DNA of 64,000 nucleotides from Sulfurospirillum diekertiae (GTDB lineage Bacteria; Campylobacterota; Campylobacteria; Campylobacterales; Sulfurospirillaceae): assembly GCF_011769985.2 (NCBI RefSeq), contig NZ_CP039734.2, positions 1,054,001 to 1,118,000 on the forward strand. The letters are read 5' to 3'. Every line of letters begins with the position of its first letter. The first letter of the stretch is position 1. The position numbers were made by a program, and so were the translations under genes. Below are positions 2,550-64,000 of the stretch, piece by piece. The notes beneath the pieces are model-generated. The model searched no databases. It saw only the letters and a list, made by a program, of their open reading frames with translations, and was not told where the DNA came from.

Positions 2550-2908
2550 ATACAACTACACATGAGAGCAGTGATAGCAGATACAGCAAACTTGAGATGC
2601 TCAAACTTGAGCGCGAAGTGATGGTTTTTTTACAAGGCTATGCCAAAAATCGCTATTCAAAGTATGTCATAGCACCGCATATTGCCGCTATGTCTTTGCA
2701 GATGAATCATCTCTATGAAGCAATGGGGTTTAAAAATCGTGTGCAGATGGGAAAATACATGAGATGCCATTTCCCAAAACTGGCTGAAATTAAACCTGTC
2801 GACAAATTGTGGAAGAAATTTCTCTACGATTCCATCAACAGAGTGGCACCTTTTTGCTTTACATGTAAAGACAATTCGAACTGCTTTGCATGCCAGTTGG
2901 CAGGATAA
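2546..2908 (+). CDS. nifQ: NifQ, molybdenum donor for FeMo-co synthesis
   Basis: NifQ delivers molybdenum, on a Mo-Fe-S cluster, to the NifEN/NifH machinery. This 120-residue protein has the family's C-terminal half: a short HFP segment, then KLWKKFLYDSI and a closing cysteine array CFTCKDNSNCFAC, matching the CxxC...CxxC pattern of NifQ. The N-terminal part is shorter than in proteobacterial NifQ (about 170-180 residues). The start ATG overlaps the rpoN stop. A copy of TTTACATGTAAA (2858-2869) encodes the FTCK of the cysteine motif, so two putative metal-ligand positions lie in the repeat. Confidence 0.85.
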   Translation: MNTTTHESSDSRYSKLEMLKLEREVMVFLQGYAKNRYSKYVIAPHIAAMSLQMNHLYEAMGFKNRVQMGKYMRCHFPKLAEIKPVDKLWKKFLYDSINRVAPFCFTCKDNSNCFACQLAG

Positions 2909-2932
2909 AGCATCTTTAAAAAGGTCAAAACA

Positions 2933-3445
2933 ATGATTCGGTTTGCCGACGAAAATGATTTGGAAGCCATTTTAACAATTTACAATGATGCGATTTTAAA
3001 TACTACTGCTGTTTATACCTATGTGGCAAAAACATTAGAAGAACGACAACAGTGGTTCCACAAAAAGAACGAAGAAGGCTATCCTCTGTGGGTGTATGAG
3101 CACGATGGGAACGTTGTTGGCTATGCAACCTATGGTTCTTTTAGGAGCAGTCCTGCTTACAAATATACGATTGAGCATTCGGTGTACGTTCACAAAGATT
3201 TTCGCAAGCACGGCTTTGGAAGGGCTTTGCTTCAAACCATCATCGACGATGCCAATGCCAAAGGGTACGCCACCATCGTTGCAGGCATTGATGCGTCTAA
3301 TACCAAGAGCATTCATCTGCACGAAAAATTAGGCTTTGTGCTTTCGGGGATTGTCCACAAAGTAGGGTACAAATTTGGTCAATGGCTTGATTTAGCCTTT
3401 TACGAACTTCAACTGGATGGCCCCAAAAATCCTACGGAAGGGTGA
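2933..3445 (+). CDS. GNAT N-acetyltransferase, phosphinothricin acetyltransferase-like
   Basis: A 170-residue single-domain GNAT enzyme that would transfer acetyl from acetyl-CoA to an amine. The acetyl-CoA loop appears as FRKHGFGRALL near residues 90-100, followed by the family-typical GIDASNTKSIHLHEKLGF. This pattern is that of the Pat/MddA group, whose members acetylate phosphinothricin, methionine sulfoximine or related amino acids; the real substrate here is unknown. It follows nifQ on the same strand with a 24-base gap. Eight bases after its stop comes a TTTACATGTAAA copy shared with the convergent VOC gene. Confidence 0.85.
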   Translation: MIRFADENDLEAILTIYNDAILNTTAVYTYVAKTLEERQQWFHKKNEEGYPLWVYEHDGNVVGYATYGSFRSSPAYKYTIEHSVYVHKDFRKHGFGRALLQTIIDDANAKGYATIVAGIDASNTKSIHLHEKLGFVLSGIVHKVGYKFGQWLDLAFYELQLDGPKNPTEG

Positions 3446-3492
3446 GTTTAGACTTTACATGTAAAGCCTTATTCCAGAGCAAAATGCATTTA

Positions 3493-3903
3493 TTATGCGT
3501 GTGTTTCTATTGTAAAAAAAGGGTTGTGCGCGATTTCCCATAAATGACCGTCAGGGTCTTTAAAATAGCCGCTGTATCCGCCCCAGAATACTTTTTGAGG
3601 TTGTTTGGTAGGGGTCGCACCTGCTTTGATGGCTTCTTGAAAGAGTGCATCCACTTCAGCTTCACTGCCAAGCATATGCGCAAGAGTAACACCATGAAAG
3701 GTACTTTCATCAAATGCGACGTTGGCATCTTCTGCGAGTGCTTTTTTCTCATAGAGCGCAAGCCATGTTCCGTTGAGCGTAAAGAATGCAATGTTCTCTT
3801 CATAAGGCTCAAGCCTAGGAAATCCCAGCCCTTTTTGGTAAAACGCAATAGACTTCGCCATATCGCTGACCCCTAAGGTAATCATACTCATGTAGGGTTT
3901 CAT
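3493..3903 (-). CDS. VOC (glyoxalase-like) family protein
   Basis: A 136-residue vicinal-oxygen-chelate protein with two beta-alpha-beta-beta-beta modules: the first from MSMITLGVSDMAKSIAFYQ, the second ending in YFKDPDGHLWEIAHNP, which holds the typical metal-ligand Glu (LWEI). Such small proteins include glyoxalase-like enzymes, dioxygenases and resistance proteins, and the substrate cannot be read from sequence. It lies downstream of the DUF711 gene on the same strand with a TTTACATGTAAA copy in the 23-base gap; its ribosome site GGAAA directly follows that copy. Confidence 0.8.
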   Translation of the reverse strand: MKPYMSMITLGVSDMAKSIAFYQKGLGFPRLEPYEENIAFFTLNGTWLALYEKKALAEDANVAFDESTFHGVTLAHMLGSEAEVDALFQEAIKAGATPTKQPQKVFWGGYSGYFKDPDGHLWEIAHNPFFTIETHA

Positions 3904-3926
3904 TGTTTTCCTTTACATGTAAAGAT

Positions 3927-6063: not shown

Positions 6064-6087
6064 ATTATCTTTACATGTAAAAATAAT

Positions 6088-9545: not shown

Positions 9546-10705
9546 TATTTTAACGCATCCATTTTTTGGATAATCTCTTCGGTTTCCGCATCGATGATCT
9601 TCAAGCTCTCTTTGAGTGATTCAACTTCTTCATTCGAAGGTGCTTCATTGTGTGCAACACTCGTTGCTTTAAGGACTCGAAGCATCTCTTGGTTGGTTGC
9701 TATCATCTCTTCATTGCTCTCTGCCATCTTTACATGTAACGTAGTTGTGTTCTCGTTGAATTGGTTGAGTTTGGTGAGCATATCTTCATAAACATGTACC
9801 AAGTCGCGCTGTTTTTCCTGCGATTTTGCAAGCATTTCCATGCCGTCTTTGATGTGCTCAGCACCTCTTTTGACCGCTGCCGCTTCTAGTGTGAGCATTT
9901 CATCAAAGAGCTCAAATTTCGCTTCAATATTTTTACCTAGACGCTCAAAAAAGTCGTTGGAACTAAGGTGTTCAAACATTCTTCCAATGCGATCAAAATG
10001 TTGAAGATTTTCTTGCAAATACGCATGTTCTATCTCTTCTTTTGACCAAAACAGTGATGCGGTTGACTCTTGAATAAGGGCAACTTCTTTATCAAAACGG
10101 CTGAGTCCTCGTTTTTCAAAGAAGATCCACCAAAGTGAGAGTAAGATACCATAGATGGAGACGTAAAACGCTGTGCCAACACCACTTAAAAGAAGGGTTA
10201 TCTCATTTTCCAAAGCGCCTGCTGTTTGCGAAGAAAAATTAGGCAGGGTTAACGCGATAGAGATAAACGTACCTAAAATACCCATCGTTGGGAAGATAGA
10301 AGCCGCAACAGAAGCGTAGTTGTCATTGCGAATGCGTTTGGCATAGGCATCGATGAAATTCTCAAAAGATGCATTGGACTTGACGCTACTACCGATAGGC
10401 ATGAGGTTTTTGGAAACATACTCGTGAAGTTCAGTTTGAAACTCTTTAGCATAGCGAAGAAATGTACAAGCACCCAGTTCACCATTGTGTTTGGCAAAAA
10501 TGAGTGAAACAATGTAGATAAATCCGATAAGAATAATACTATGGATACCTACTTTAAAATGAAGAATGTCTAAAAAACCCAGTAAAAAATAGATATATGC
10601 TAACGTTGGAAGTAAAATGAGCTTCAGATAGACAAAAGCACAGCTACGTTGGGGTGTTTCGAGTGATGCGAGATTTTGGAGTGTTTCGTTCATGTCTTCG
10701 TTCAT
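9545..10705 (-). CDS. MotA/TolQ/ExbB-family proton channel protein
   Basis: About 386 residues from ATG 10705 (longer frame opens at 10789, but 10705 has a better spaced AAAGGC). Membrane helices lie near the N-terminus (LILLPTLAYIYFLL and a second helix), and the MotA/ExbB signature is PTMGILGTFISIALTL followed by LLLSGVGTAFYVSIYGILLSLWW. A cytoplasmic coiled-coil tail of about 150 residues follows. It is the channel partner of the OmpA/MotB-like gene, which it overlaps. A TTTACATGTAAC variant (9729-9740) encodes LHVK in the tail. The process powered is unknown. Confidence 0.85.
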   Translation of the reverse strand: MNEDMNETLQNLASLETPQRSCAFVYLKLILLPTLAYIYFLLGFLDILHFKVGIHSIILIGFIYIVSLIFAKHNGELGACTFLRYAKEFQTELHEYVSKNLMPIGSSVKSNASFENFIDAYAKRIRNDNYASVAASIFPTMGILGTFISIALTLPNFSSQTAGALENEITLLLSGVGTAFYVSIYGILLSLWWIFFEKRGLSRFDKEVALIQESTASLFWSKEEIEHAYLQENLQHFDRIGRMFEHLSSNDFFERLGKNIEAKFELFDEMLTLEAAAVKRGAEHIKDGMEMLAKSQEKQRDLVHVYEDMLTKLNQFNENTTTLHVKMAESNEEMIATNQEMLRVLKATSVAHNEAPSNEEVESLKESLKIIDAETEEIIQKMDALK

Positions 10706-10921: not shown

Positions 10922-11809
10922 ATGTCCTCCAAAAAAGATTTTTTAGAACGTCATAGCATTAAGCAGTTGCTTAAAACGACACTTCATGGTACTATTGAAA
11001 ATATTGCGACGCATTTAAAGGCTTTTTTACAAACCAAAGACCCTGAAAGCTTGCATCAGTACCGTGTTTACATTCGCACAGCACGCTCTATTTGCTTGGA
11101 ATTTAGCGAGTTTATGGATGAAAAACGTCAATTTGTCCTTGATAAAACGCTCAAAGTTCTCCAGCAAGAGACCAACGAAATGCGTGATCTTGACGTTTTT
11201 ATAGAGTCGCTTGATGCCTATAAGCAAAAAGTTGACGATCAGTATTGGGATGATGTTGAACATCTCCAAACACAACTTTTGGCAGAAAAGGAGTTGGCGT
11301 ATCGTAGTTTTGAAACAAAATTTACGCCCAAGCTTCAAGCCAAGATCATTGAAGAGTTAACCGAATTACAGAATGATGAAAAGCTCTGCCTTCCTAAATC
11401 CGAAGAAAAACTGTTCCGCCATATCAAAGCCATCATCGAAAAGCGTCTCAAAAAGATTGCTAAACTCTCCAAAAAGCTTGATATAAAATCTTCCAATGAA
11501 AAATTTCATAAACTAAGACTCCACTACAAAAAACTCCGTTATACCTGTGATGCTTTATCTTTCAAACAGTTTGCTAAAAGTTTTAAGCCAATTCAAAATG
11601 CTTTTGGTAAAGTGCAAGACAAAAATACCCAAATCGAGCGTATCAAACGTTATAATAGCGCCAACAGTGTGGCACTCCAAAAGGTCATTGCGCTTTTAGA
11701 AGAAGAAATTGACAATGATAAGCGTGTCTGCATCGAAAAATCGACTAAGGATATCCTCCAAACTATGCACGAAAAATTTGAAAAAATCTTTACATGTAAA
11801 GAGTCTTAA
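10922..11809 (+). CDS. CHAD-domain protein
   Basis: A 295-residue helical protein with the CHAD pattern of conserved His, Lys and Arg: HQYRVYIRTARS near the N-terminus and FHKLRLHYKKLRYTCDAL near residue 200, two repeats of basic helices that in known CHAD proteins bind inorganic polyphosphate. No CYTH/triphosphatase domain is fused. It ends in IFTCKES, where a TTTACATGTAAA copy (11789-11800) provides FTCK. Two bases later the YgjP-like metallopeptidase gene starts, so the two are co-transcribed. Confidence 0.88.
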   Translation: MSSKKDFLERHSIKQLLKTTLHGTIENIATHLKAFLQTKDPESLHQYRVYIRTARSICLEFSEFMDEKRQFVLDKTLKVLQQETNEMRDLDVFIESLDAYKQKVDDQYWDDVEHLQTQLLAEKELAYRSFETKFTPKLQAKIIEELTELQNDEKLCLPKSEEKLFRHIKAIIEKRLKKIAKLSKKLDIKSSNEKFHKLRLHYKKLRYTCDALSFKQFAKSFKPIQNAFGKVQDKNTQIERIKRYNSANSVALQKVIALLEEEIDNDKRVCIEKSTKDILQTMHEKFEKIFTCKES

Positions 11810-12315: not shown

Positions 12316-12359
12316 GTTTTACATGTAAAAATAATAGAGAGAAGAAAGGAGTATCTAAT

Positions 12360-14247: not shown

Positions 14248-14260
14248 CTTTACATGTAAA

Positions 14261-15163: not shown

Positions 15164-15314
15164 GAAATGCTCCCAATAATTTAGTATGGGTGAAATCATA
15201 TCCGTAAAAAAAAATTAATTCTTCACTAGTGTTGCTCTAAAAGTTATCTATTTGTGCTCATAAAATTATTATATTTTGCTAAAATTCTTACATGTAACGT
15301 GAAAGGATGCGCAA

Positions 15315-17144: not shown

Positions 17145-17243
17145 TGCACCTCTCCGTCATTGTAATATGTGATATTTTATCACATGATGAGAATTTCTGC
17201 TTTAAAATCTTTACATGTAACGCTAAAGAGATACTTTTGTGTT

Positions 17244-18779: not shown

Positions 18780-18918
18780 TTAGTCTCCTTTATGAAACAA
18801 TTCTATCATAATCAATTTTAGGTTACATGTAAAGTGCAAAAGCCTATTTTTCAACCACTGCTTTGGCGTAAGTATGGGTATAATGGTGTTCTAGTTATAG
18901 AATTTTTAGGAAAGATAT

Positions 18919-20442: not shown

Positions 20443-21587
20443 CGAACACAATTACGACCCGCATCTTTTGCTTCATAGAGTTTTGCATCGGCTTTGATGT
20501 AAAGCTCATCAAGCCTTTTAATTTCAGGGGTATACATCGCTAAACCAATGCTGACAGTGAAATTGAGAATTTTGCCTTCATCATAAGGTATTTCAAGGCT
20601 GCTCAGCTCTTTGTTCAAGGTTTCCATCTTAGCTCTGGCTTGCTCTTCGTTTACATGTAAAAGTAAAAAGGCAAACTCTTCACCACCAATACGAGCCATA
20701 ATGTCTGTGTCGCGCAAACTTTTTAAACAGTGCTTGGCAAGCGCTTTTAATACAGCATCGCCTATAGGGTGTCCTAAGGTATCGTTAATACTCTTAAACT
20801 GATCCACATCAAGAACCGCAAAGCAGATAGAACCGTTGTAACGTACAGCGCGTGTAAACTCTTGTTCGGCTACTTCGAGAAAATACCGACGGTTATGGAG
20901 ACCTGTTAAGGTATCGGTTTGGGCGAGGTATTGCAGTTCTTTTTCTAATTCAATACGTTGTCCTATCTCTTCTTTGAGATTCATTTGCTCTAAAAAAAGT
21001 GCTTTGTGGCTTTTCATAGACTCTTGTTGATAACGTGAACGATGATACTCAACCCAACTACTAATAAATGCAACGGTCATATAAGTAACACTAAAACGCA
21101 CTTGAAAAGGAATGCTATACGTCGTATGAATTTCGGGGACAATGCCAAACAGTCCAATGATCATGCCTAAAAGCACACAACTGTACAAAAAACCAAGACG
21201 ATTGCCAAATAAAAATATGGTTCCAATAGGATAAACATATGCCCAAAGAATACGTGAGTTGTCTGTATCGGTAGCATTGAAAATCATATAGAGAATTAAA
21301 AAAGCATAAAGTAAGTTGGAAATATGATAGATTAAAGATGTCTCTTTCATCTTAGGAATAAAGACTAACGATCCGATAAGATGTGTGGAAAAGAGAATCA
21401 CCAAAAAAGACAATGTAAAATTGTGGATATAAGCATTGTAAGCGCTCGTTCCTAGTGCTACTGGTGCCATCAAAAGGGTAATCCAAACATAATGATTGAG
21501 TCTTGAAAGTTCCGTTTTGTCCTGACATGATGATTTGGCAACGATAATATCAACAAAATACTGAATGTTTTTGGCAAGTGTAATCAT
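20439..21587 (-). CDS. Membrane diguanylate cyclase (GGDEF)
   Basis: A 382-residue protein: cytoplasmic N-terminus, about six membrane helices (35-190), then a GGDEF domain. The active loop is RIGGEEF and the RxxD inhibition site (RDTD) stands five residues before it, so this should be an active, feedback-inhibited c-di-GMP synthase. A TTTACATGTAAA copy (20650-20661) encodes LHVN inside the catalytic domain. The first 34 residues are closely matched by a gene remnant at 31522-31623. Confidence 0.92.
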   Translation of the reverse strand: MITLAKNIQYFVDIIVAKSSCQDKTELSRLNHYVWITLLMAPVALGTSAYNAYIHNFTLSFLVILFSTHLIGSLVFIPKMKETSLIYHISNLLYAFLILYMIFNATDTDNSRILWAYVYPIGTIFLFGNRLGFLYSCVLLGMIIGLFGIVPEIHTTYSIPFQVRFSVTYMTVAFISSWVEYHRSRYQQESMKSHKALFLEQMNLKEEIGQRIELEKELQYLAQTDTLTGLHNRRYFLEVAEQEFTRAVRYNGSICFAVLDVDQFKSINDTLGHPIGDAVLKALAKHCLKSLRDTDIMARIGGEEFAFLLLHVNEEQARAKMETLNKELSSLEIPYDEGKILNFTVSIGLAMYTPEIKRLDELYIKADAKLYEAKDAGRNCVR

Positions 21588-21699
21588 AATAGTTGTTATT
21601 CCTTAAAGTGTACATTCTAAAATGCAGGAAAGAAGGCTCCTTTTTACATGTAAAGCAAAATGAGGGCAATAGAAAAGTTTTATTGCCCTTGATATTGTT

Positions 21700-22554: not shown

Positions 22555-22684
22555 TACAGACTCCAAAAAAAATAATACGATATTGTATCAAAAGGTTTCT
22601 TAGCCATCTGTGCAATAAGTAGGCAGAAGTTTCTTTTTTACATGTAAAGCGTTGAAAAAGAAGTTTGGGTGATTTTCTATTTTG

Positions 22685-22782
22685 GTTTTAAAGATCAAAG
22701 AGATATTATTTTGACAGGCATTGGAGTTTGGGTTGAATTGGCTTTACATGTAAAAGTTAAAACTCAAGCCCTGACCCCTAAA
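22685..22782 (+). repeat. Dispersed repeat A, copy 1
   Basis: A roughly 98-base element sharing the string GATATTATTTTGACAGG, TTGGAGTTTG and, at its end, AGCCCTGACCCCTAAA with copies at 26859-26950 and 31830-31926. A TTTACATGTAAA copy (22743) lies inside and a variant at 22803 just after. No gene is convincing in 22567-22842; the open frames there are short and repeat-derived. Confidence 0.75.
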
Positions 22783-22842
22783 CTTCTAGTGCTTGCTAAA
22801 CTCTTACATGTAAGAATTTTTGTATCAAAAAAAGTTAAGAAC

Positions 22843-24940: not shown

Positions 24941-24966
24941 AAGAGGCTTTACATGTAAAGCCTCTT
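24941..24966. terminator. 26-bp perfect palindrome containing TTTACATGTAAA
   Basis: The palindrome extends the 12-mer with AAGAGGC before it and GCCTCTT after it, so the whole 24941-24966 is self-complementary. It starts one base after the FMN-protein stop codon (24939) and is followed by TGGTTATTT. It is a likely terminator whose core is the dispersed 12-mer. Confidence 0.7.
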
Positions 24967-26814: not shown

Positions 26815-26858
26815 TAAATCTTTTACATGTAAAAACTTGAAAACGATATATTTTGTTT

Positions 26859-27032: not shown

Positions 27033-27108
27033 TGACGAGGCTACTGGAAAATTAGAAAATTCAATCTTTACATGTAAAGTGAAAAATTTAAAAAGTAGCC
27101 TGTCCCCT
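27033..27108. repeat. Dispersed repeat B, copy 1 (hairpin with 12-mer in loop)
   Basis: GGCTACT (27039-27045) pairs with AGTAGCC (27094-27100). The loop carries TTTACATGTAAA at 27067. The right end AAAAGTAGCCTGTCCCC is shared with copy 2, and the internal AGTGAAAAATTTAAAAAGTAG is shared with copy 3. Confidence 0.75.
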
Positions 27109-27562: not shown

Positions 27563-27628
27563 GTGACAGGCTACTTTTACGGAACTAGACAATAAATCTT
27601 TTACATGTAAATAAAAGTAGCCTGTCAC
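27563..27628. repeat. Dispersed repeat B, copy 2 (17-bp inverted repeat)
   Basis: GTGACAGGCTACTTTTA (27563-27579) and its exact complement at 27612-27628 form a 17-bp stem around a 32-base loop holding ACTAGACAATAAATC and the 12-mer at 27600. It is the most intact member of the family and may also terminate transcription. Confidence 0.85.
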
Positions 27629-28089: not shown

Positions 28090-28157
28090 GGTTACTCTTA
28101 AAGAATTAGACAATAAATCTTTTACATGTAAAGTGAAAAATTTAAAAAGTAGCTAGC
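28090..28157. repeat. Dispersed repeat B, copy 3
   Basis: Holds GGTTACTCTTAAAGAATTAG, then ACAATAAATC with the 12-mer at 28121, and AAAAAGTAGC at the right end. It is the least paired copy. The rest of 28044-28254 shows nothing recognisable. Confidence 0.65.
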
Positions 28158-31757: not shown

Positions 31758-31810
31758 GCTACTTTAAGGGAACCAGACTGTCAATCTTTTACATGTAAAA
31801 AAAAGTAGCC
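31758..31810. repeat. Dispersed repeat B, copy 4
   Basis: GGCTACTTT (31758-31766) pairs with AAAGTAGCC (31802-31810) around a loop with GGGAACCAGACTGTCAATC and the 12-mer at 31788. It is followed within 20 bases by repeat A copy 3, as copy 2 is followed by an A fragment. Confidence 0.78.
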
Positions 31811-32839: not shown

Positions 32840-32963
32840 CTTTTCTCCTTTTCCATATTATATAGCGATTGATTATACCCCACTATTCACCTTTGAACAT
32901 TGACATTTTACATGTAAATATTTCGCTTTATATTTTTTATTTTTTTCAAAAGTATTTTTCTAC

Positions 32964-42418: not shown

Positions 42419-42451
42419 TTTACATGTAAGGTTTTAATCCTTACATGTAAA
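42419..42451. terminator. Double-palindrome hairpin between convergent genes
   Basis: TTTACATGTAAGG (42419-42431) and CCTTACATGTAAA (42439-42451) are exact complements around a 7-base loop. Two copies of the 12-mer core thus pair into one 13-bp stem between the phosphatase and GMC genes. The rest of 42370-42560 shows nothing else. Confidence 0.7.
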
Positions 42452-44219: not shown

Positions 44220-44704
44220 ATTTTTCTCCCATAGGTACTTTTTGGACGCGGGTCTCCGTTTACATGTAAAACAGATTTCCATCCCATTTCCTCTGTGTTT
44301 CCCCCGTAAATTGGATCACCGAACATTGCTTCAAGCGTGTAATAAATCAGCCGTGAGAGCCATTGCTCCAAATACGCATCCTCACTTGCTAGCTCTACGA
44401 TACGGTATTGAGCTTCTGCATTTTCTTGAAAAAAATGAGAAAATTTTTGGTTAAAAACAGAAGCCCCTTCGATCAAAAGTTCCAAATCATTTTGATCAAA
44501 ATAGGAGCTGGTGCTATTGACGATTAAAAAGGAAAGGGCATTGACATTTTTTGCAGAGGGCATCTGCTCGGTTGCAGGCAGTAAGACTTCTTGGACACTT
44601 TCGATGGTTCTCCACACAGAAGCAGGAACATCTTTAGCATACGCGTCTATGCTTAAAAAAAAAGGTGATGAAGCACTCAGTGCCATAAATGTACGTCTAT
44701 TCAT
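44216..44704 (-). CDS. Gluconate 2-dehydrogenase subunit 3-like protein with Tat signal
   Basis: A 162-residue small subunit. The start MNRRTFMALSASSPFFLSIDAYA is a twin-arginine signal, suggesting the folded two-subunit enzyme is exported by the Tat system. The mature part (VQEVLLPATEQMPSAKNV, then a helical C-terminus with FGDPIYGGN) matches the subunit 3 family. It is translationally coupled to the GMC subunit (ATGA). A 12-mer copy at 44259-44270 encodes LHVN near the C-terminus. Confidence 0.8.
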   Translation of the reverse strand: MNRRTFMALSASSPFFLSIDAYAKDVPASVWRTIESVQEVLLPATEQMPSAKNVNALSFLIVNSTSSYFDQNDLELLIEGASVFNQKFSHFFQENAEAQYRIVELASEDAYLEQWLSRLIYYTLEAMFGDPIYGGNTEEMGWKSVLHVNGDPRPKSTYGRKI

Positions 44705-44770: not shown

Positions 44771-44813
44771 TGTCATTATACTGTCACTATCCAAACCCAA
44801 AAGGAGATCTACA

Positions 44814-45047: not shown

Positions 45048-45053
45048 TCTGCA

Positions 45054-45488: not shown

Positions 45489-45533
45489 CTTTGCAAAAGG
45501 CTATGGTATAATTGGCTTAAAAGGAAGTGGTCG

Positions 45534-46190
45534 ATGAAAATTTTATTGCTAGAAGATGATCCAATTTTATCTGATATTCTACTCTGTCATCTGAATCGCC
45601 ATCTTCATCAAACGACTCACTTTAGCGATGGGCAGTCGGCTTCTGATGCGCTCAGTATCCAAAAATTTGATCTTTTAATTCTTGATATTAATGTCCCAAA
45701 ACTCAGTGGTATTGATCTTATTAAAGAAATTCGTACCTATAAGGACACGACACCTGCTATTATCATTACCGCATTTCAAGATACGGCTCATTTGAAAAAA
45801 GGATTTGAAAATGGTTGCGATGATTACATCAAAAAGCCTTTTGATCTTGAAGAGCTTGACTTACGCATTAAAAACATTCAAAAACGATTTAACCTTATCA
45901 ATGAACAAGCCATCATTATCGATTCCCATCTTTCATTAATGGCTTCTAAAAACCGCTTGTATGTCAATGAAGTACCTTACACCCTGACGCGTAAAGAGTG
46001 CAAAATCTTACTCTATTTAAGTAACCACAAAAGTAAGGTTGTCTCCTCAGAAGAGCTGATGCAAAATTTATGGGATTATGATGAAATGCCTAGCGAAGCG
46101 ACGATTAGGGTTTATATTAAAAATCTACGCAATATTATTGGAAAAGATAAAATTCAAACCGTTAGAGGGAATGGATATATTTTTGAATAA
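45534..46190 (+). CDS. OmpR-family response regulator
   Basis: A 218-residue regulator with a receiver domain (LLLEDDPIL, phospho-acceptor in LLILDINVPK, switch Thr in IIITAFQ, Lys in YIKKPF) and a winged-helix output domain (LTRKECKILLYLSNHKSKVVS, then IRVYIKNLRNII). It lies 45 bases after the DoxX gene and overlaps the kinase gene by 20 bases. It probably controls the Cys-Gly peptide/DoxX genes through the inverted repeat at 44735-44770. Confidence 0.9.
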   Translation: MKILLLEDDPILSDILLCHLNRHLHQTTHFSDGQSASDALSIQKFDLLILDINVPKLSGIDLIKEIRTYKDTTPAIIITAFQDTAHLKKGFENGCDDYIKKPFDLEELDLRIKNIQKRFNLINEQAIIIDSHLSLMASKNRLYVNEVPYTLTRKECKILLYLSNHKSKVVSSEELMQNLWDYDEMPSEATIRVYIKNLRNIIGKDKIQTVRGNGYIFE

Positions 46191-47337
46191 AGAAGAACAG
46201 GGCGCATTATGGCGATTTTTAATCATCTATGTTACTTCTGCACTCTTTCTCATGAGTATTATTGCTATCTTGTACTACAACAATGAAACCAATAAGCTTC
46301 ATGAAAAACGTTCAATGGAAATTAAAACCGTTGTGATGAGTTACGAAAAAGAGTTGATGCAAGCGGAGATGGATAAAGTGCCGTATCTGTTTCATCCACC
46401 CAAAGAATTTTTCACGGTTGCTTTGTTAAAAGAGGATAAACAGACTCTTTTTTCAAGCTTTAAAACTCCGTTGCTTGATTTAAATACAACACCCTATGCT
46501 GTTCATCAATTAGCAACTCCCATTAATGGCGTAGCTTACATTGTTGTTGATGAAGACATGAGCGAACGAGAGATACTCAGGCTTAAATTTATTATTTTGT
46601 TTACGATGGTTATATCTGCGCTCTTTGTGGGTGTTGAAGGTTACTTTTTAAGCCGTTTGTTGCTTAAGCCAGTTCACTTGCGCATTGAAAAGCTCAATCA
46701 TTTCATTAAAGACAGTTCTCATGAACTAAACACGCCCGTTGCCGCTTTAATGATGAGCGTTTCAAACTTGAAGCAAAGCTCTTTTAAAGATATACGTGTT
46801 ATCAACCATATTTCCATTAGCACAAAACTCATTTCTCAAATTTACAATAGCCTGAGTTATATTGCGTTTCATGATATTGATGAAGTGTTTGAAGAGTCAT
46901 TTGATCTTGCCCTTTTAATTCAAGAGAGTGTTGGATTTTTTAATGAAATAGCTTCCACAAAGGACAATATAATTACGGCACAACTTCAAACAACATTCGT
47001 TTACATGGATAAATCACGTATTCAAAAAGTGATCCATAATCTTCTCTCGAATGCTATTAAATACAGTTATCCCCAAACAGCGATTTGCGTTGAGCTTTCA
47101 GAACATCTTTTAACCGTTAAAAATGAAGGTATTGGCATTCATAAAGAGAATCAAAAGAGCATTTTTAAGCGTTTTGAGAGACGAAGCAATGCGGTGGGAG
47201 GCTTTGGTATAGGGCTGGATATTGTCAATTCTGTTTGTAAAAGGTATGATATAAAAGTATGGGTTGAATCCATCCCAAATAAAGAGACAACCTTCTTTTT
47301 ACACTTTCCTATCACTCACATAGGTGTAAAAGATTAA
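46171..47337 (+). CDS. Sensor histidine kinase
   Basis: About 388 residues from ATG 46171 (GAGGGA just before). It has membrane helix 1 (about 14-36), a roughly 100-residue periplasmic loop and helix 2 (about 130-155). The phospho-acceptor box is DSSHELNTPVAAL (unusual Asn in place of Arg/Lys before TP), and the ATPase domain shows NLLSNAIKYS, NEGIGI and GGFGIGLDIV. It pairs with the preceding regulator. The periplasmic sensor is not of a recognised type; by context it may sense metal or oxidative stress. Confidence 0.88.
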   Translation: MDIFLNKEEQGALWRFLIIYVTSALFLMSIIAILYYNNETNKLHEKRSMEIKTVVMSYEKELMQAEMDKVPYLFHPPKEFFTVALLKEDKQTLFSSFKTPLLDLNTTPYAVHQLATPINGVAYIVVDEDMSEREILRLKFIILFTMVISALFVGVEGYFLSRLLLKPVHLRIEKLNHFIKDSSHELNTPVAALMMSVSNLKQSSFKDIRVINHISISTKLISQIYNSLSYIAFHDIDEVFEESFDLALLIQESVGFFNEIASTKDNIITAQLQTTFVYMDKSRIQKVIHNLLSNAIKYSYPQTAICVELSEHLLTVKNEGIGIHKENQKSIFKRFERRSNAVGGFGIGLDIVNSVCKRYDIKVWVESIPNKETTFFLHFPITHIGVKD

Positions 47338-49002: not shown

Positions 49003-49479
49003 GTGATACGACTTTTTAGCGATGGCAGTGTCAATACCCAAACCCACGTTGGGTTTGGCGCGTATCTCATTGTGCTTGAAAATACGACGTTAGAAGCGCT
49101 TAAGACTTTACATGTAAAGGTCAAAGCCTTTACACAAACCTCTTCAACGAAGCTTGAACTTCAGACGTTACTATGGGCATTGGACGAGGTCAAAGATTTG
49201 GCGGATGAGATTGTGATTTACACCGATTCCCAAAATATTATCGGTTTGCCGAGCAGAAGAGAGCGGTTTGAGCGCAATGAGTATGCGACAAAACAGAAGA
49301 AGGTTCATGAGCATGCCGCGTTATACCAAACGTTTTACAGGGTAATGGATGAACTGAAGTGTTCTTTGGTGAAAGTAAAAGGGCATAAGCTCTCATGCGA
49401 TAAAGATGAAATCGATCAGTACTTTACCTTAGTAGACCGTGCCTCGCGTGAAGCCCTTCGAAAAAGTAGTCTTTCCTAG
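49003..49479 (+). CDS. RNase H-like protein
   Basis: A 158-residue RNase HI-fold protein beginning with GTG immediately after the previous stop. The carboxylate set is visible: RLFSDGSV (Asp), TKLELQTLLWAL (Glu), IYTDSQNI (Asp) and a last Asp in TLVDRASRE. A His-Lys segment (KGHKLSCDKDE) precedes it, as in RNase HI. It may degrade RNA in RNA-DNA hybrids. The 12-mer at 49107-49118 encodes LHVK in a loop not conserved in the family, and another copy begins right after its stop codon. Confidence 0.82.
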   Translation: MIRLFSDGSVNTQTHVGFGAYLIVLENTTLEALKTLHVKVKAFTQTSSTKLELQTLLWALDEVKDLADEIVIYTDSQNIIGLPSRRERFERNEYATKQKKVHEHAALYQTFYRVMDELKCSLVKVKGHKLSCDKDEIDQYFTLVDRASREALRKSSLS

Positions 49480-49492
49480 TTTACATGTAAAA

Positions 49493-50549: not shown

Positions 50550-50571
50550 GAGAGGTTACATGTAACCTCTC
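50550..50571 (-). terminator. 22-bp palindrome with GTTACATGTAAC core
   Basis: GAGAGGTTACA and TGTAACCTCTC are exact complements (50550-50571). It lies three bases after the chemoreceptor stop and carries a variant of the dispersed 12-mer with both outer bases changed and paired, so the palindrome is preserved. Confidence 0.7.
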
Positions 50572-51716: not shown

Positions 51717-51853
51717 TGTATTTCTCCTGTATGAAATAGAATTCACATTCTACTTCATACGCAAAAATAAAAGATTGATCTGTATCAAAAAATAAGATAA
51801 TTTTACTCTCTTTTTAAAATAAACAGTTAAAAGTCTTTACATGTAAAAAATAT

Positions 51854-52732: not shown

Positions 52733-52879
52733 AGAAACTCCTTTGATATATGTTTAGAATAACGTATCGCAAAGTTACTAATCTCTCATTTAAAAAGATG
52801 CGTTTGGTAGTAAAAAAATGACAAATGTTATAAATGAGCCTATTTCTGTTTCTCAAAGAAGCAATCAACCCAAAAGCTT

Positions 52880-54304
52880 TTACATGTAAAGCTTCTGATC
52901 CTCAACGAGTCCTAGTTTTCGTGCGATTGCCACAGCGGCTTCTCTGCCATCAAGGGCGGCATTGACCACCAAGTTTGCACCTCTGACTACATCGCCTCCT
53001 GCAAAGATAAATGGATGAGAGGTCTCTTTATGTTCATCCACAATCAGCGTATTGGATTTACCAATGGCGAGGTTGAGTTCATCGTAAAAGTCAAAATGTT
53101 TAGCTTGAAAGCCAAGGGCAAGAATGATACTGTCGGCGGGTAGCGTTTGAAAGCTTTGCGGTTTAGTTTGAAGACGGTTATTTTCATCGGTATAGGTTTC
53201 AAGAATTTCAAGCCCAACGACACGATGCTCAGCATCCACAATCGCTTTTTTAGGCAGTGCGTTAAAGATAAACTGCACCCCTTCTTCTTTGGCGTTAATC
53301 ACTTCTGCTCGACTTCCCGGCATACTCGCTTCATCTCTTCGGTACACACAGGTGACACTTTTGGCTTTATGACGAATGGCAGTACGAAGGGCATCCATCG
53401 CAGAGTCACCACCACCGATAACGACAACATGTTTATTGCGTAAGATTGATTTTTGAAGCGCATGGTCGAAAAGATTTTTTTGCGTCTGAGTGAGTAGGGT
53501 CATGACTTGATAAACCCCATTGGCATCTTCATTTTCCATGTCGGCACTGCGACCTTTAGGCACACCAAGCCCCAAAAAGACGGCATCAAATTTTTCTTGA
53601 AGCTCACTGAGGCTTACATCTTTTCCCACTTCGGTATTAAGATGCACTTTCATGCCTGCTTCTTTCATCCACTCAAAACGTCTTAAGATGACGCTTTTAG
53701 GAAGTTTAAAATTAGGAATGCCGTACATTAATAGCCCACCTACACGGTTTTCTCGTTCAAACATTTCCACTTCAATGTTGGAGCGCAGTAAAAAGGTCGC
53801 GCAGCTAAGACCTGCTGGTCCACTGCCGACAACGGCAACTTTAAACTTTCGTCCATCTGCTTGACCATAATCAGGAATAGCCCCTTGCTCATACGCTTTT
53901 TCATTGAGAAAGACTTCCACATTACCGATGGAAACGGCATGATACTCTGTTTTTTCGAGTGTACATGAACTTTCGCACAGTCCTTTTTTAGGACAAACGC
54001 GACCCAGAATTTCAGGAAAAGGAGATCTGGCATTGGAGAACTCAAACGCTCCTAGATAGTCGTGTTCATAGGTTTTTTTAAGCCATCTTGGAATGTTGTT
54101 ATTGAGAGGGCACCCCGTGCGACAAAACTTGAATTCACTCTCAAGTCCACGTAAAAGATCAATGGGGCATTGCAAACAACGGCTTGCTTGCGCCTTGGCT
54201 TCACTTTCTTCAAAGTTGTGATAGATCGGGTAATAATCCTCAATGCGCTCAACGGCGGGGCGTTTTTTTGGATAGGCTTTTGCGATTGTTTTATATTCTC
54301 TCAT
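52880..54304 (-). CDS. GltD-like NAD(P)H flavoprotein of the hydrogenase operon
   Basis: A 474-residue GltD/NfnB-type subunit. The N-terminal domain has Cys motifs for two [4Fe-4S] clusters (ASRCLQCPIDLL, FCRTGCPLNNNIP, GRVCPKKGLCESSC). Then come an FAD site (VAVVGSGPAGLSCATF), an NAD(P) site (HVVVIGGGDSAMDA) and the C-terminal FAGGDVVRGANLVVNAALDGREAAVAIA. It starts one base after hypA and closes a seven-gene hydrogenase operon, so it may pass electrons between NAD(P)H and the hydrogenase. The stop codon TAA lies in a 12-mer copy (52879-52890). Glutamate synthase is unlikely as gltB is absent. Confidence 0.85.
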   Translation of the reverse strand: MREYKTIAKAYPKKRPAVERIEDYYPIYHNFEESEAKAQASRCLQCPIDLLRGLESEFKFCRTGCPLNNNIPRWLKKTYEHDYLGAFEFSNARSPFPEILGRVCPKKGLCESSCTLEKTEYHAVSIGNVEVFLNEKAYEQGAIPDYGQADGRKFKVAVVGSGPAGLSCATFLLRSNIEVEMFERENRVGGLLMYGIPNFKLPKSVILRRFEWMKEAGMKVHLNTEVGKDVSLSELQEKFDAVFLGLGVPKGRSADMENEDANGVYQVMTLLTQTQKNLFDHALQKSILRNKHVVVIGGGDSAMDALRTAIRHKAKSVTCVYRRDEASMPGSRAEVINAKEEGVQFIFNALPKKAIVDAEHRVVGLEILETYTDENNRLQTKPQSFQTLPADSIILALGFQAKHFDFYDELNLAIGKSNTLIVDEHKETSHPFIFAGGDVVRGANLVVNAALDGREAAVAIARKLGLVEDQKLYM

Positions 54305-54305
54305 G

Positions 54306-54653
54306 CTATTCCTCTATGATCTCTATACTTTTTACATGTAACTCTTGTCCGCCTATCATGGCGACATCCTCGCTATAACATTTCGGACAGATAAAATGGT
54401 TCTCTTTTACGACACTTTGCTCATGACACGAGGCGCACAAAAGTACCACGTCACACAGCTCTATACTCAGCGTGGCATCATGGCAGATGGTCTCTTCTTT
54501 AAAGGTATCAAAACACTGTTCTAAAAAATGAATTTCAATGCCACTGAGCCTTCCCACACTGATTGTAAGGCTTTTGATTGCTTTGGCATGATGCCTCTTC
54601 GCCTCTTTTTCGCACAGATCAATGAGTGAAGCGACGATGGAGTATTCATGCAT
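54306..54653 (-). CDS. hypA: Hydrogenase nickel-insertion protein HypA
   Basis: A 115-residue HypA: the N-terminal MHEYSIV carries the Ni-binding His2, and the zinc site is made of CASC and CPKC (LLCASCHEQ, HFICPKCYSED). It delivers nickel to the hydrogenase large subunit with HypB. It sits inside the hydrogenase operon, seven bases after the ferredoxin gene and one base before the flavoprotein gene. The C-terminal LHVK is encoded by a 12-mer variant (54330-54341). Confidence 0.93.
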   Translation of the reverse strand: MHEYSIVASLIDLCEKEAKRHHAKAIKSLTISVGRLSGIEIHFLEQCFDTFKEETICHDATLSIELCDVVLLCASCHEQSVVKENHFICPKCYSEDVAMIGGQELHVKSIEIIEE

Positions 54654-56223: not shown

Positions 56224-56710
56224 GGTTGATCCCTTCTTCTGCTTTAACTTTACTCCAAAGTTCTTGGCTTACTTTGCCACTCATGGCTGAAGAGAGCGAG
56301 TAATACTCTTCAAGTACGCTCTCCTTAATGGACTCATCCAAAAAGAGGCGTTTGGGATTGGGATGGTTCAAGATGGCTATACCATAGATTTCGCTAAGCT
56401 CCCTTTCTGTCCAGTCGGCACTTTTAAACAGAGGCGTGATGGAGGGAACGCTTTTGTCGGTGATGTGCAGTTTCACATTGAGCATGATGCCATCAAGGTC
56501 AAAATGGTAGACCAGCTCATGCCCCTTTTCTTTTTCATAAGCAGTGATCATACAGACTCGAGCGTTCATTGTCTGTAAGATCTCTGCAAGTTGTGAAAGC
56601 ATATTTTTAGCATCTATCTCGCACCAAAGACTGTCACCTTTTACGTCAAAGTGAGCATTAATTTTGAGTGTGGAAAGAATATCGTTTAACTTTACATGTA
56701 AAGATTTCAT
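56216..56710 (-). CDS. NuoC/HycE-N-like hydrogenase subunit
   Basis: A 164-residue protein of the NADH dehydrogenase 30-kDa subunit family. The signature is FKSADWTERELSEIYGI, then NHPNPKRLFLDE. It corresponds to the N-terminal part of HycE. A 12-mer copy (56691-56702) overlaps codons 3-6 and encodes SLHVK close to the start codon. The last gene stop and this start are nearly adjacent. It likely stabilises the large/small subunit interface. Confidence 0.87.
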   Translation of the reverse strand: MKSLHVKLNDILSTLKINAHFDVKGDSLWCEIDAKNMLSQLAEILQTMNARVCMITAYEKEKGHELVYHFDLDGIMLNVKLHITDKSVPSITPLFKSADWTERELSEIYGIAILNHPNPKRLFLDESIKESVLEEYYSLSSAMSGKVSQELWSKVKAEEGINRG

Positions 56711-57632: not shown

Positions 57633-57746
57633 ATGAATGATTTTAGAAGATTTAATCATGTATTACATCACAAAAAAAGCGCTATAGTGCAAAGAATTTT
57701 GGGATGAAAAAGGTAAAATACTCTATTTTACATGTAAAGGATAAAA

Positions 57747-61433: not shown

Positions 61434-61775
61434 AATTATAACGTTATTTATGCTAGTAGTCAATAAAAATGAATTCAAATAAGTATAATTTTATGTACTA
61501 TTATATGTAAATCATACAATAGACTTCACACAATATCGAAGAGCGATGGTATAAAAAGGCTTTACATGTAAACATCAAGTAGATATGCAAACACCAATAC
61601 TACGTTTTTATGGCTAGAAAAAGACTTTGTTAAAAGACTCACCTTATGGGTACTTTATTTTAAGAACCTATACGTAGCGTACAAATATCTTTGTCTTTTA
61701 CCAGCCATTTTTTAATTTGAGGAGAAAAAGACCGCCAATTGAAGGTTTTATCTGTAGCGGTCTTTTGCGTGTTAT
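61434..61775. other. Gene-free stretch with a terminator and a 12-mer copy
   Basis: It holds a 12-mer at 61561-61572 and, at 61726-61766, a hairpin (AAAAGACCGC pairing with GCGGTCTTTT, 10-bp stem, 21-base loop) that ends the slyD transcript. No gene is recognised in the remaining AT-rich sequence. Confidence 0.6.
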
Positions 61776-62250: not shown

Positions 62251-62280
62251 CGTTCTTCCTTCTGTATATTTGAGTGGATT

Positions 62281-63399
62281 TTATCTTCTTTTGGACAAAT
62301 AATCCCTGAGTCGTTCAATGCCTTTTCGCATATGTTCTATATTTCGTGTGTAGGCAAAGCGAAGGTAGCGGTTTGTGCCATTGCTTCCAAAGTCAATACC
62401 CGGTGTTGTCGCAACATGGATATTTTCTAAGAGTTCTTTAGCAAATGCAAAACTATCATTGGAATATTTCGAAATATTGGCCCAGATGTAAAATGCTCCC
62501 TCAGGCTTTGCATCAATCTCAAAAAGTGTGGAGAGTTCGGTGTATAAAAAATCACGTCGGGCTTTGAATTCGGCTTTTATTTCTGTGAGATACGCTTCAT
62601 CAAAGGCTTCAAGTGCTCCGTATTGGCTAAGCGTGGGTGCTGAGATGAAAAGGTTTTGCGCGACGATTTCGGCATGGCGAACTTTTTCTTTAGGAACAAT
62701 CACCCAACCCAAACGCTGACCAGGCATACAGTAATACTTCGAAAAGCCATTAATAACCAAGACATTTTTGCTAAACTCAAGCGCACTGTGGGCGTTTTCT
62801 TCATAGGTTAACCCATGGTAAAGCTCATCGGAGATAAAGGCGATATTTTCTTTTTCGCAGTACTCAACCAACGCTTTGAGATTCTCTTTTTTATAAATAT
62901 TGCCCGTAGGATTGGCAGGTGAAGAGATTTGAAGGGCATCAAGTTGATGTGGTTTTAAATCCTTTACATGTAATTCAAACTCATCTTCTTTACCGATGGA
63001 CATAAACAGAGGTTTGATATCAAGAAGATGTGCAAAATTTTTGTAACACGGATAGGAAGGATCACTTAGTCCAAGTGTTGCGCCACCTTTGAGGGTGAGG
63101 GCATAGGCGATTAAAAAAGCACCGCTGGTTCCTGGAGTTAAAAAGATTTGATCGATGTCTATGCTTACACCATAGGTTGTCGCATAATGGTTCGCTATTT
63201 TTTCACGAAGTGCTATAAGACCGTGACTTTGTGTATATGAAAAGCGGTTTTCATCAATGCTTACATGTAACGCTTTTTTAACCTTAGGAGAGGGCGGAAG
63301 GTCGGGCTGACCAATCTCAAAATGGATACTATCTTCAAACTTTTCAGCCTCTTTGACAATGTCCATAACAATAAAAGAACTCATTTCGTTGCAACGCAT
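62281..63399 (-). CDS. PLP-dependent aminotransferase class I
   Basis: A 372-residue fold-type I aminotransferase. The PLP Lys is in NGFSKYYCMPGQRLGWV; ISSPANPTGNIY and FISDELYHGLTYE supply the Asn and Asp/Tyr cofactor contacts, and the Arg in RYLRFAYTR binds the substrate carboxylate. The exact amino acid is not clear; aspartate/tyrosine-type or MalY-like are possible. Two 12-mer variants (62963, 63261) fall inside the gene and encode LHVK- and LHVS-type segments. It stands alone. Confidence 0.88.
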   Translation of the reverse strand: MRCNEMSSFIVMDIVKEAEKFEDSIHFEIGQPDLPPSPKVKKALHVSIDENRFSYTQSHGLIALREKIANHYATTYGVSIDIDQIFLTPGTSGAFLIAYALTLKGGATLGLSDPSYPCYKNFAHLLDIKPLFMSIGKEDEFELHVKDLKPHQLDALQISSPANPTGNIYKKENLKALVEYCEKENIAFISDELYHGLTYEENAHSALEFSKNVLVINGFSKYYCMPGQRLGWVIVPKEKVRHAEIVAQNLFISAPTLSQYGALEAFDEAYLTEIKAEFKARRDFLYTELSTLFEIDAKPEGAFYIWANISKYSNDSFAFAKELLENIHVATTPGIDFGSNGTNRYLRFAYTRNIEHMRKGIERLRDYLSKRR

Positions 63400-63449
63400 A
63401 TACTTACCTTTTGATTTTAAAGCGGATATTATAGCTCATTTGAAAGCAG

Positions 63450-63469
63450 AGGGAAGTGAAGGCTTCCCT
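63450..63469. terminator. Hairpin after the CobW-type gene
   Basis: AGGGAAG (63450-63456) pairs with CTTCCCT (63463-63469), with a 6-base loop, nine bases after the stop of the minus-strand CobW-family gene. No strong T run follows. Confidence 0.5.
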
Positions 63470-63477
63470 GAAAAAGT

Positions 63478-64000
63478 TTACGAAGCTACGGTTTGAAGAA
63501 ATTCGGTTTTGAGCTTTTCGTAAGGCAGATAACGACCAATGACGACAAGTAAAGATTTGCGCTCGCCCTCAAAAGGTGCTCCAAAATCAAAGCCAACGAC
63601 TTTATGAACCCCTTGAACAATTAACCGTCGCTCATCGCTAGAAACCGCTAAGACACCTTTGTAGCGTAGCATATCGTTTCCATACTCTTCAACAAGGTTT
63701 TCCATAAAGGTACCGATTTTTTTGATATCAAGTTCTCCCGCCTCAAAGACATAGGAAGTAATATCATCATTCCAAGATTGTGTCTGTTTTTGAGCACTAA
63801 AACTCTTAAATTGGATGTTTTGAACATCACGAGCTTGATAGAAACCTTGGTTTACATGTAAAGCATCACTCAGATCAAACGCTCCAATTCCTATCCAAAT
63901 CTCTTTTGGGAGTGCGCCATTAAATGCTTCAAAAATCTCAGCTTTAGAGTTGATGGCATTAACACGTGAGAGTACACGCTCTTTATGCGTTTCATCAACG
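63478..64000 (-). CDS. CobW/COG0523-family GTP-binding metallochaperone (partial)
   Basis: The visible C-terminal 173 residues run in from the right edge without a start, beginning around VDETHKERVLSRVNAINSKA. The closing domain MLRYKGVLAVSSDERRLIVQGVHKVVGFDFG is the CobW C-terminal signature. The GTPase core with the nucleotide motifs and the CxCC metal site is outside the window. COG0523 proteins deliver zinc, cobalt or other metals to client enzymes. The 12-mer at 63851-63862 encodes LHVN in this gene. Confidence 0.88.
   Translation of the reverse strand, partial: VDETHKERVLSRVNAINSKAEIFEAFNGALPKEIWIGIGAFDLSDALHVNQGFYQARDVQNIQFKSFSAQKQTQSWNDDITSYVFEAGELDIKKIGTFMENLVEEYGNDMLRYKGVLAVSSDERRLIVQGVHKVVGFDFGAPFEGERKSLLVVIGRYLPYEKLKTEFLQTVAS

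Follow-up and report, generated by a model that had tools for sequence, protein, structure and literature searches.

The ten-letter palindrome TTACATGTAA looks like a recognition signal of this Sulfurospirillum genome, perhaps one for the uptake of kin DNA. Across the whole genome (2,777,717 bp) it was counted 1220 times, about one copy per 2.3 kb, whereas the reversed word was found 8 times. Copy numbers of uptake sequences, too, run from hundreds to thousands and far exceed chance. It is tentatively read here, at somewhat less than even confidence, as a genome-wide signal whose likeliest role is in DNA uptake (transformation): a palindrome bound where a curved loop has its apex, and propagated through biased uptake.

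Copy number and extent of the core

In the window, the whole stretch of 64,000 nucleotides that was analyzed, the 12-mer TTTACATGTAAA occurred in 28 exact copies, compared with a mean of 0.00 in 100 dinucleotide shuffles. The over-represented palindrome reported in the sequence-only reading was thus recovered in full. When up to two mismatches to the 12-mer were allowed, 50 sites were obtained against 7.5 expected. Nested counts in the window were 53 for ACATGT, 40 for TACATGTA, 39 for TTACATGTAA and 28 for TTTACATGTAAA, and 39 of the 40 TACATGTA carried TTACATGTAA. The true unit is the ten-letter palindrome; the 12-mer, which had been taken as the unit, is its commonest form. The sites in the window are as follows (strand in brackets).

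2858..2869 (.), TTTACATGTAAA, exact match
3454..3465 (.), TTTACATGTAAA, exact match
3912..3923 (.), TTTACATGTAAA, exact match
6070..6081 (.), TTTACATGTAAA, exact match
9730..9739 (.), core TTACATGTAA, T..C flanks
11789..11800 (.), TTTACATGTAAA, exact match
12318..12329 (.), TTTACATGTAAA, exact match
14249..14260 (.), TTTACATGTAAA, core conserved in the alignments of L042-L045 and L066, one core change in L065 (G011); in or beside a GC-rich hairpin
15288..15297 (.), core TTACATGTAA, C..C flanks, conserved in L042-L045
16199..16210 (.), TTTACATGTAAA, in or beside a GC-rich hairpin
17211..17220 (.), core TTACATGTAA, T..C flanks, conserved in seven aligned relatives and lost from L049 (G017)
18823..18832 (.), core TTACATGTAA, G..A flanks
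20650..20661 (.), TTTACATGTAAA, within a predicted gene
21643..21654 (.), TTTACATGTAAA, exact match
22637..22648 (.), TTTACATGTAAA, exact match
22743..22754 (.), TTTACATGTAAA, exact match
22804..22813 (.), core TTACATGTAA, C..G flanks
24948..24959 (.), TTTACATGTAAA, within a GC-flanked hairpin-like inverted repeat
26822..26833 (.), TTTACATGTAAA, part of a repeated unit
27067..27078 (.), TTTACATGTAAA, part of a repeated unit
27600..27611 (.), TTTACATGTAAA, flanked by the arms of inverted repeat I1
28121..28132 (.), TTTACATGTAAA, part of a repeated unit
31788..31799 (.), TTTACATGTAAA, part of a repeated unit
32907..32918 (.), TTTACATGTAAA, out of phase
42420..42429 (.), core TTACATGTAA, T..G flanks
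42441..42450 (.), core TTACATGTAA, C..A flanks
44259..44270 (.), TTTACATGTAAA, exact match
49107..49118 (.), TTTACATGTAAA, within a predicted gene
49480..49491 (.), TTTACATGTAAA, immediately 3' of a predicted gene end
50556..50565 (.), core TTACATGTAA, G..C flanks
51836..51847 (.), TTTACATGTAAA, exact match
52879..52890 (.), TTTACATGTAAA, exact match
54332..54341 (.), core TTACATGTAA, T..C flanks
56691..56702 (.), TTTACATGTAAA, exact match
57727..57738 (.), TTTACATGTAAA, exact match
61561..61572 (.), TTTACATGTAAA, exact match
62964..62973 (.), core TTACATGTAA, T..T flanks
63261..63270 (.), core TTACATGTAA, C..C flanks
63851..63862 (.), TTTACATGTAAA, exact match

A 464-kb sample of the genome contained 296 ACATGT, 231 of them within TACATGTA, and 204 of these 231 extended to TTACATGTAA. 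The other 65 were scattered over 15 flank contexts with 2-7 copies each, so that no prominent second form of the motif was apparent in this sample. Outside TTACATGTAA, the half-sites carried T/A at positions ±6 in 80% and C (left) or G (right) at ±7 in 51%. In 444 kb of chromosome, 203 TTACATGTAA were found, where an order-3 Markov model predicts 0.69.

Helical phasing of the flanks

AT content around TTACATGTAA oscillated with a period of 11.2 bp, and the phase was held to about ±100 bp. This period was set using an initial sample and afterwards tested on new stretches. In total, 324 of 384 sampled sites were in phase, compared with 2003 of 4000 random points. The phasing was symmetric, with AT maxima at whole helical turns from the dyad, and its amplitude was 0.059 at coding and 0.064 at intergenic sites. 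Judged from this A/T phasing, the DNA around the core is probably curved. Two small control sets reached comparable amplitudes, though at other phases: 10 ACATGT outside TACATGTA in G005 (0.055) and 7 TACATGTA in G009 (0.043).

Conservation and decay at orthologous sites

Between motif-rich species, the core was identical at 73-92% of the alignable orthologous sites (7/7 in one small pair) while the flanks drifted. It was kept at 41/48 sites from G000 to G005, 38/52 from G005 to G000, 22/27 from G000 to G003, 24/26 from G003 to G005 and 23/27 from G005 to G003; these counts exclude sites without a good alignment (for G000 to G005, 48 of 74 were aligned). Flank identity predicts a core retention of only 6-16% in these pairs, and random 10-mers were kept in 21.3% of 347 cases (G000 to G005) and 15.7% of 172 (G005 to G003). 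The constraint was limited to about ±6 bp around the dyad. The helical phase was maintained between rich species despite base turnover. Neither this conservation of the core nor the phasing had been among the observations of the sequence-only reading.

In two motif-poor related species, both core and phase had decayed. Phase at orthologous places was lower in poor targets, with ranges that nearly touch: the lowest rich value was 0.035 (G005 to G000, bootstrap sd 0.006) and the highest poor value 0.029 (G000 to G017, bootstrap sd 0.008). Orthologous 10-mers changed mainly by substitutions, with small gaps or inserts in a minority (8 of 40 among those listed for G000 to G009). Gain and loss by substitution, with strong maintenance while active, is the behavior of an uptake sequence. 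An insertion or mobile repeat (REP/BIME) was rejected, because the alignments showed substitutions instead of unit insertion and empty sites.

With somewhat less than even probability, the signal has two levels, a fixed palindrome of 10 bp and a DNA shape that extends over about 200 bp. Bases would be free in the shape, and the rotational phase of its curvature conserved. Such a loop-apex element would differ both from a plain uptake word and from a plain protein-binding site, and it would be gained and lost as a whole.

Distribution and repeated loss

TTACATGTAA was present in 24/24 Sulfurospirillum genomes searched, with 49-1496 copies per genome, but across the phylum only 31 of the 397 genomes reached 30 copies or more. 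Together with the genome-wide count and the orthologous conservation, this bears out the earlier proposal of a genome-wide signal; the copies are neither confined to the window nor reproduced by shuffling. Copy number dropped sharply in G017 (238, compared with 1496 and 1309 in its neighbors G005 and G008), in G009 (49, compared with 1099 in G003 and 1127 in G016) and, outside the genus, in G182 (48, compared with 367 in G137 and 380 in G377). Comparisons beyond the genus drew on 18-57 sites per genome. No prominent substitute motif was seen in motif-poor G009; in motif-poor G083 there was a weak excess around TCATGA, whose phasing was not clear. Phage carriage was rejected: in a scan of viral contigs for close 12-mer pairs, 10 stretches came up, each holding 2-6 cores and none of them motif-rich.

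Proposed interpretation as an uptake signal

The uptake reading would work as follows. A symmetric receptor, in the simplest case a minor pilin of the type IV pilus acting as a dimer or in two copies, would read the palindrome, and would do so best when the palindrome occupies the apex of a curved segment of about 200 bp. At the dyad, the minor groove would face the inner side of the curve, so that the DNA would enter as a folded loop. Fragments with core and curve would be taken up and recombined more frequently, and this bias alone could spread and maintain both at about 1200 mostly dispensable places. In a lineage that lost the specificity, core and curvature would decay. Since many sites are kept singly and more than half of those sampled lie in genes, we infer that biased uptake with recombination is an easier explanation than separate functions.

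The uptake sequences of Pasteurellaceae (USS) and Neisseria (DUS) resemble the motif in their thousand or more exact copies per genome inside and between genes, their strong core with weaker flanks, substitution-wise evolution and patchy loss. According to excerpts of PMC1626085 and PMC1939737, uptake sequences occur about once per kb, competence is sporadic and often lost (both PMC1626085), and uptake sequences evolve by substitution and not by unit insertion (PMC1939737). USS of Pasteurellaceae also have AT tracts about one helical turn apart. In contrast to these known uptake sequences, which are not palindromic, TTACATGTAA is a perfect palindrome. Its phasing is symmetric and reaches about ±100 bp, while that of USS is strong only within about 35 bp. 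In 381 USS, strong AT tracts were found at +2..7 and +15..19 and weak ones on the 5' side; beyond 35 bp no more than a faint signal remained on the 5' side (0.021 at 35-68 bp, compared with 0.020 for the control word GTGCGG). PMC1626085, in the same excerpt, proposes that helically spaced AT flanks allow stiff DNA to be kinked for sideways entry, an idea that the phased flanks of TTACATGTAA would extend. Among the literature matches listed, there was no description of an uptake motif in Sulfurospirillum.

Several results do not fit the uptake reading well. A 39.9-kb plasmid contained 14 TACATGTA (0.5 expected) but with different flanks, and two genomes of family f8 carried the core with no clear phase (7/18 and 15/25 sites in phase). 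The nearly touching phase ranges of rich and poor targets also count against it. Divergence between two genomes of the same species did not drop near the sites; a recombination footprint, hinted at by a smaller data set, was therefore rejected.

The candidate reader proteins likewise gave no receptor. ComEC and T2SSE-family ATPases were each present in 36/36 genomes of the panel and N-methylated pilins in 22/22, motif-poor genomes included, so that the presence of competence genes does not discriminate rich from poor, and loss of ComEC or the pilus was rejected as a general cause of motif loss. ComP is a specific uptake-receptor pilin. ComN is a predicted receptor pilin in the excerpt of PMC12616744. 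Comparison of pilin sets gave no candidate separating motif-rich from motif-poor genomes, and a pilin of about 300-330 amino acids, aligned from 14 genomes, showed no clear difference between them. Two suggestive breaks in ComEC or pilus genes were noticed, yet the motif-rich, fragmented G020 likewise had a disrupted ComEC.

Should TTACATGTAA prove to be an uptake signal, the few known uptake sequences would gain a lineage, the Campylobacterota, and a new design, a palindrome with built-in curvature, and the sideways entry of stiff double-stranded DNA could be tested directly.

Possible alternative: chromosome architecture and gyrase

The main alternative, less probable but of some weight, is a wrapping site for a dimeric DNA-binding protein, or for gyrase that this protein guides; contact with the palindrome would be made on the concave side, and about 200 bp would be wrapped. 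The chromosome would then hold about 1200 scattered wrapped points or plectoneme tips, selected because wrapping sets supercoiling or nucleoid structure. Positive supercoils gather between convergent genes, and convergent intergenic regions had the highest site density. Maintenance of phase despite base turnover is as expected of DNA-shape reading. Like gyrase sites, the motif has a symmetric center, flank composition oscillating at about 11 bp and, on this alternative, wrapped DNA. The E. coli gyrase motif, as given in an excerpt of PMC6379681, is symmetric and degenerate, spans 130 bp and has a flank period of 10.75 bp; for gyrases of three species, the excerpt of PMC12324340 gives 10-11 bp. 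The symmetric flanks of TTACATGTAA, with their period of about 11.2 bp, AT peaks at whole turns and 324/384 sites in phase, agree with this pattern.

The fixed 10-bp core sets the motif apart from the degenerate gyrase motif, and at about ±100 bp it also reaches farther than the latter, which spans -63 to +66 bp. The core preferences of gyrase (-4G/+8C and -2A/+6T in the excerpt of PMC12324340) conflict with the core: by our own reading of that numbering, G is expected at dyad -6 and A at -4, and the motif has T at both. PF00521 gave a single match in 34/36 genomes and a second partial or weak match in the other two. GyrA of motif-poor G017 was close to that of motif-rich G005, so that gyrase itself does not track the motif; with no GyrA split between rich and poor neighbors, gyrase was rejected as the changing factor. 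Lrp/AsnC was rejected as the wrapping protein, PF01037 being matched in 2/29 genomes and unmatched in 27/29. Repeated loss and strong conservation of single genic sites would also be harder to explain by a nucleoid function. Sites of Noc, SlmA and MatP are likewise palindromic binding sites scattered over the chromosome, but they number tens per genome, unlike the 1220 copies found here, more than half of those sampled in genes.

If the motif is an architecture site, each chromosome would offer about 1200 phase-defined wrapping points, with related species lacking them, for a test of why an 11-bp A/T periodicity of unclear role is found in bacterial genomes (PMC3940949, in excerpt).

HIP1-type repeats and methylases

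It is improbable that the motif is an iterated palindrome of the HIP1 kind, made and kept by a DNA methylase and by repair bias, directed at the palindrome or at an internal portion of it such as CATG. Like HIP1 of cyanobacteria (GCGATCGC), which goes with orphan methylases (PMC4390886, in excerpt), it is a short palindrome, genome-wide and patchy among relatives. However, motif-rich G184 (567 copies) and G149 (340) had neither a PF01555 nor a PF02086 match, G000, G005 and G003 had no PF01555 match and G013 (934) had no PF02086 match. The pattern of beta-class and D12 methylases therefore does not fit the motif, and the methylase site suggested earlier is not supported for these two classes. 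Repair bias that acts on a short word leaves a phase co-maintained over ±100 bp unexplained, and 159 HIP1 of a Trichormus plasmid showed no helical phasing (amplitude 0.006).

Gene context and base composition

Genes were called with a purpose-written script instead of a standard caller, and 113 of 203 sampled TTACATGTAA lay within predicted genes. Site density per kb was 4.4 between convergent genes (19 sites over 43 regions), 2.5 in divergent regions, 1.7 in tandem ones and 0.28 in coding sequence. Every intergenic class was denser than genes, and with more than half of the sites in genes the earlier suggestion of a standard 3'-end element proved too narrow. A transcription element, either a terminator stem or a global-regulator site, is very improbable: convergent regions are densest and GC-rich hairpins hold or adjoin some copies (window 14249, 16199 and 24948), but the genic sites, the richness of divergent regions and the equal phase at coding and intergenic sites speak against it.

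The density of TTACATGTAA tracked GC content per 20-kb stretch (r = 0.74, n = 41), low-GC stretches being sparser, as if the motif were absent from foreign DNA. Short spacings between neighboring sites (14, 19, 21, 22, 23, 32, 32, 36, 36, 38, 42 and 46) were judged by eye to be unphased.

Abundance and genomic placement of the motif

The sequence-only reading had singled out a 12-bp palindrome as massively over-represented, and its abundance stood up to control: 28 copies lie in the window versus none in 100 shuffles. The proposal of a genome-wide signal was likewise borne out, with 1220 copies of the ten-letter core TTACATGTAA in the whole genome (2,777,717 bp; a chromosome of 2.74 Mb and a second contig of 39.9 kb) compared with 8 of the reversed word. 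In a 464-kb sample, the shorter inner word TACATGTA extended to TTACATGTAA in 204 of 231 cases, and the motif unit is TTACATGTAA. Beyond this core, half-sites carried T/A at ±6 in 80% and C/G at ±7 in 51%. A chromosome sample of 444 kb contained 203 TTACATGTAA, where 0.69 were expected from an order-3 Markov model. Placement was analyzed in this same sample, using 472 genes predicted by our own script.

Placement of chromosomal sites
Convergent intergenic DNA: 19 sites, 4.4 per kb
Divergent intergenic DNA: 25 sites, 2.5 per kb
Tandem intergenic DNA: 44 sites, 1.7 per kb
Predicted genes: 113 sites, 0.28 per kb
Stretch edges: 2 sites, no density given

Even within genes, site density was ~100 times the genome-wide density of the reversed word. 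Counts per 20-kb stretch were near random (mean, 8.6; variance, 11.0), and density tracked GC content (r = 0.74, n = 41 stretches of 20 kb). Most of the lowest-GC stretches were motif-poor although the word is AT-rich, which would fit depletion in acquired DNA. Three regions of the window were recorded separately.

26813-31924: motif-bearing repeated units between small ORFs, some with inverted AGGCTACTTT/AAAGTAGCCT arms; looks like a small gene array bounded by repeats
32919-42419: longest gap without the motif; holds nifHDK-like genes and an IS21-type transposase pair
37488-47332: ~9.8 kb that does not align with G004, a genome of the same species with ~2.5 kb at this place

Helical phase of the flanks

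The AT content of the flanks oscillated symmetrically about the core with a period near 11.2 bp, its maxima lying a whole number of turns away from the dyad and weakening outward to about ±100 bp. Between 9 and 104 bp the amplitude was 0.060, compared with at most 0.019 at 12 other six-base palindromes; nine control words gave at most 0.015. In the same genome, sites one mismatch from the motif showed little phasing (0.014), and ACATGT outside TACATGTA showed none (0.002 at 11.2 bp). Single sites were in phase in 200 of 236 cases versus 2003 of 4000 random points, and in 124 of 148 cases in 360 kb of fresh sequence; all chromosome sequence used from this genome gave 324 of 384. The signal persisted at 61-104 bp alone (mean, 0.034; s.e., 0.004).

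The same phasing was found in the motif-rich genomes G005, G003, G011, and G007, in G004, and in the 17 leftover sites sampled from motif-poor G017. It was also present in G346, from another family (44 of 57 sites in phase). In two core-carrying genomes of family f8 it was absent or weak (7 of 18 and 15 of 25 sites). An ambient 11-bp AT periodicity was detected away from sites in our genome, in G005, and in motif-poor G009 and G083, and over whole stretches it was strong in G346 and weaker in the f8 genomes G137 and G149 (stretches L021-L034 and L384-L389 plus our own genome). The sites therefore have a constant rotational position on DNA whose composition is periodic to begin with.

Distribution and conservation

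At least 30 copies of TTACATGTAA were present in 31 of 397 phylum genomes, all others having 0-19. Of the 31, the genus supplies 15 and the rest of its family 5; the remaining 11 are dispersed across two further families. Counts across 24 genus genomes ranged from 49 to 1496. In a GyrA tree of 29 sequences, some of whose forks are weakly supported, poor genomes adjoin rich ones several times, which suggests repeated loss of the motif property.

Orthologous sites with identical core (alignable sites only; G000 is the genome under study)
Within species: 27/27
G000 to G005: 41/48
G005 to G000: 38/52 (lowest rich pair)
G000 to G003 and G003 to G000: 22/27 each
G000 to G011: 18/20
G011 to G000: 21/23
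G011 to G005: 12/15
G003 to G005: 24/26
G005 to G003: 23/27
G000 to G007: 7/7
Towards poor G009: 0/40, 1/42, 0/27
Towards poor G017: 10/42, 9/44

From flank identity, 6-35% core identity was expected between species, and random 10-mers were identical in 15.7-37.5% (four between-species pairs tested). Constraint on sequence reached only about ±6 bp, the outer bases diverging like their surroundings. Phase amplitude at orthologous places was 0.035-0.059 in rich targets and lowered in poor G009 (0.012-0.021) and G017 (0.022-0.029), nearly touching the rich range. The flanks conserve shape, not letters.

Nature of the signal

The perfect palindrome, the AT minor grooves on one side at the dyad and every turn, and a shape kept without its bases together suggest that the reader is a symmetric protein complex bending or wrapping ~200 bp. 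A drive best explains why so many sites are kept, over half of those sampled lying within genes. Biased DNA uptake is the known drive of such form according to passages in PMC1939737, and passages in PMC1626085 propose that uptake-sequence flanks may help kink DNA too stiff for sideways entry; curvature over ±100 bp would do so here. A palindromic DNA-uptake signal is therefore ranked first, as a tentative candidate. A site for a DNA-wrapping chromosome protein comes second and is rather unlikely. A methylase-linked iterated palindrome, ranked third, is improbable: the comparable HIP1 lacked helical phasing (amplitude 0.006 at 159 copies, from 250 kb of Trichormus plasmid sequence). A transcription element, ranked fourth, is less probable still; phasing was alike at coding (0.059) and intergenic (0.064) sites.

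Several findings count against an uptake signal. No receptor for it was found, several motif-poor genomes have intact pilus and ComEC genes, divergence from the same-species genome did not drop near sites, and two f8 genomes gave no clear phase. As a known uptake sequence, 381 AAGTGCGGT in 605,577 bases of Pasteurellaceae were analyzed. In these, AT tracts are strong at +2..7 and +15..19 and weak on the 5' side, where they reach to about -33. Farther out, at 35-102 bp, the period-11.0 amplitude came to 0.010 (3') and 0.009 (5'), where the null sd is 0.005. The highest distal value, 0.021 at 5' 35-68 bp, resembled that of the control word GTGCGG (0.020). Among the open-access papers listed as matches, none concerned the motif in these bacteria.

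Competence genes, exchange, and plasmid

In G009, the motif-poorest of the genus, one PilT-like ATPase gene has an in-frame stop (G009:C1:240531-241331, L159), the only above-cut-off match with a stop among the matches listed; relatives have intact copies. ComEC of motif-poor G022 (168 copies) is split over two contigs (residues 1-237 and 301-420; C207:23692-24393 and C56:14049-14408) by an insertion or an assembly gap. G020, a motif-rich but fragmented assembly, also has ComEC with stops. Between G000:C1:1054001-1164500 and G004, divergence formed a mosaic of 0.3% to 13.6% per 4-kb block, which suggests homologous exchange.

The 39.9-kb plasmid contained 14 TACATGTA where 0.5 were expected. 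Just 4 of these have the full TTACATGTAA (L020:1-20000, L035:1-19868), so its flank rule differs from that of the chromosome. Its first 20 kb matched S. diekertiae pSDIE1 at 99.6% identity across 48% of the length. A D12 (DNA adenine) methylase gene holds four TACATGTA; five fall within 0.9 kb at a gene whose position suggests that it matches an S24 peptidase of pSDIE1.

G083, a member of a same-family genus, is nearly devoid of TTACATGTAA (7 copies). It had an excess of TATCATGA (62 versus 15.6 expected) and TCATGATAA (28 versus 5.0; L028-L034), neither with clear helical phase, and perhaps carries an unrelated weak palindrome.
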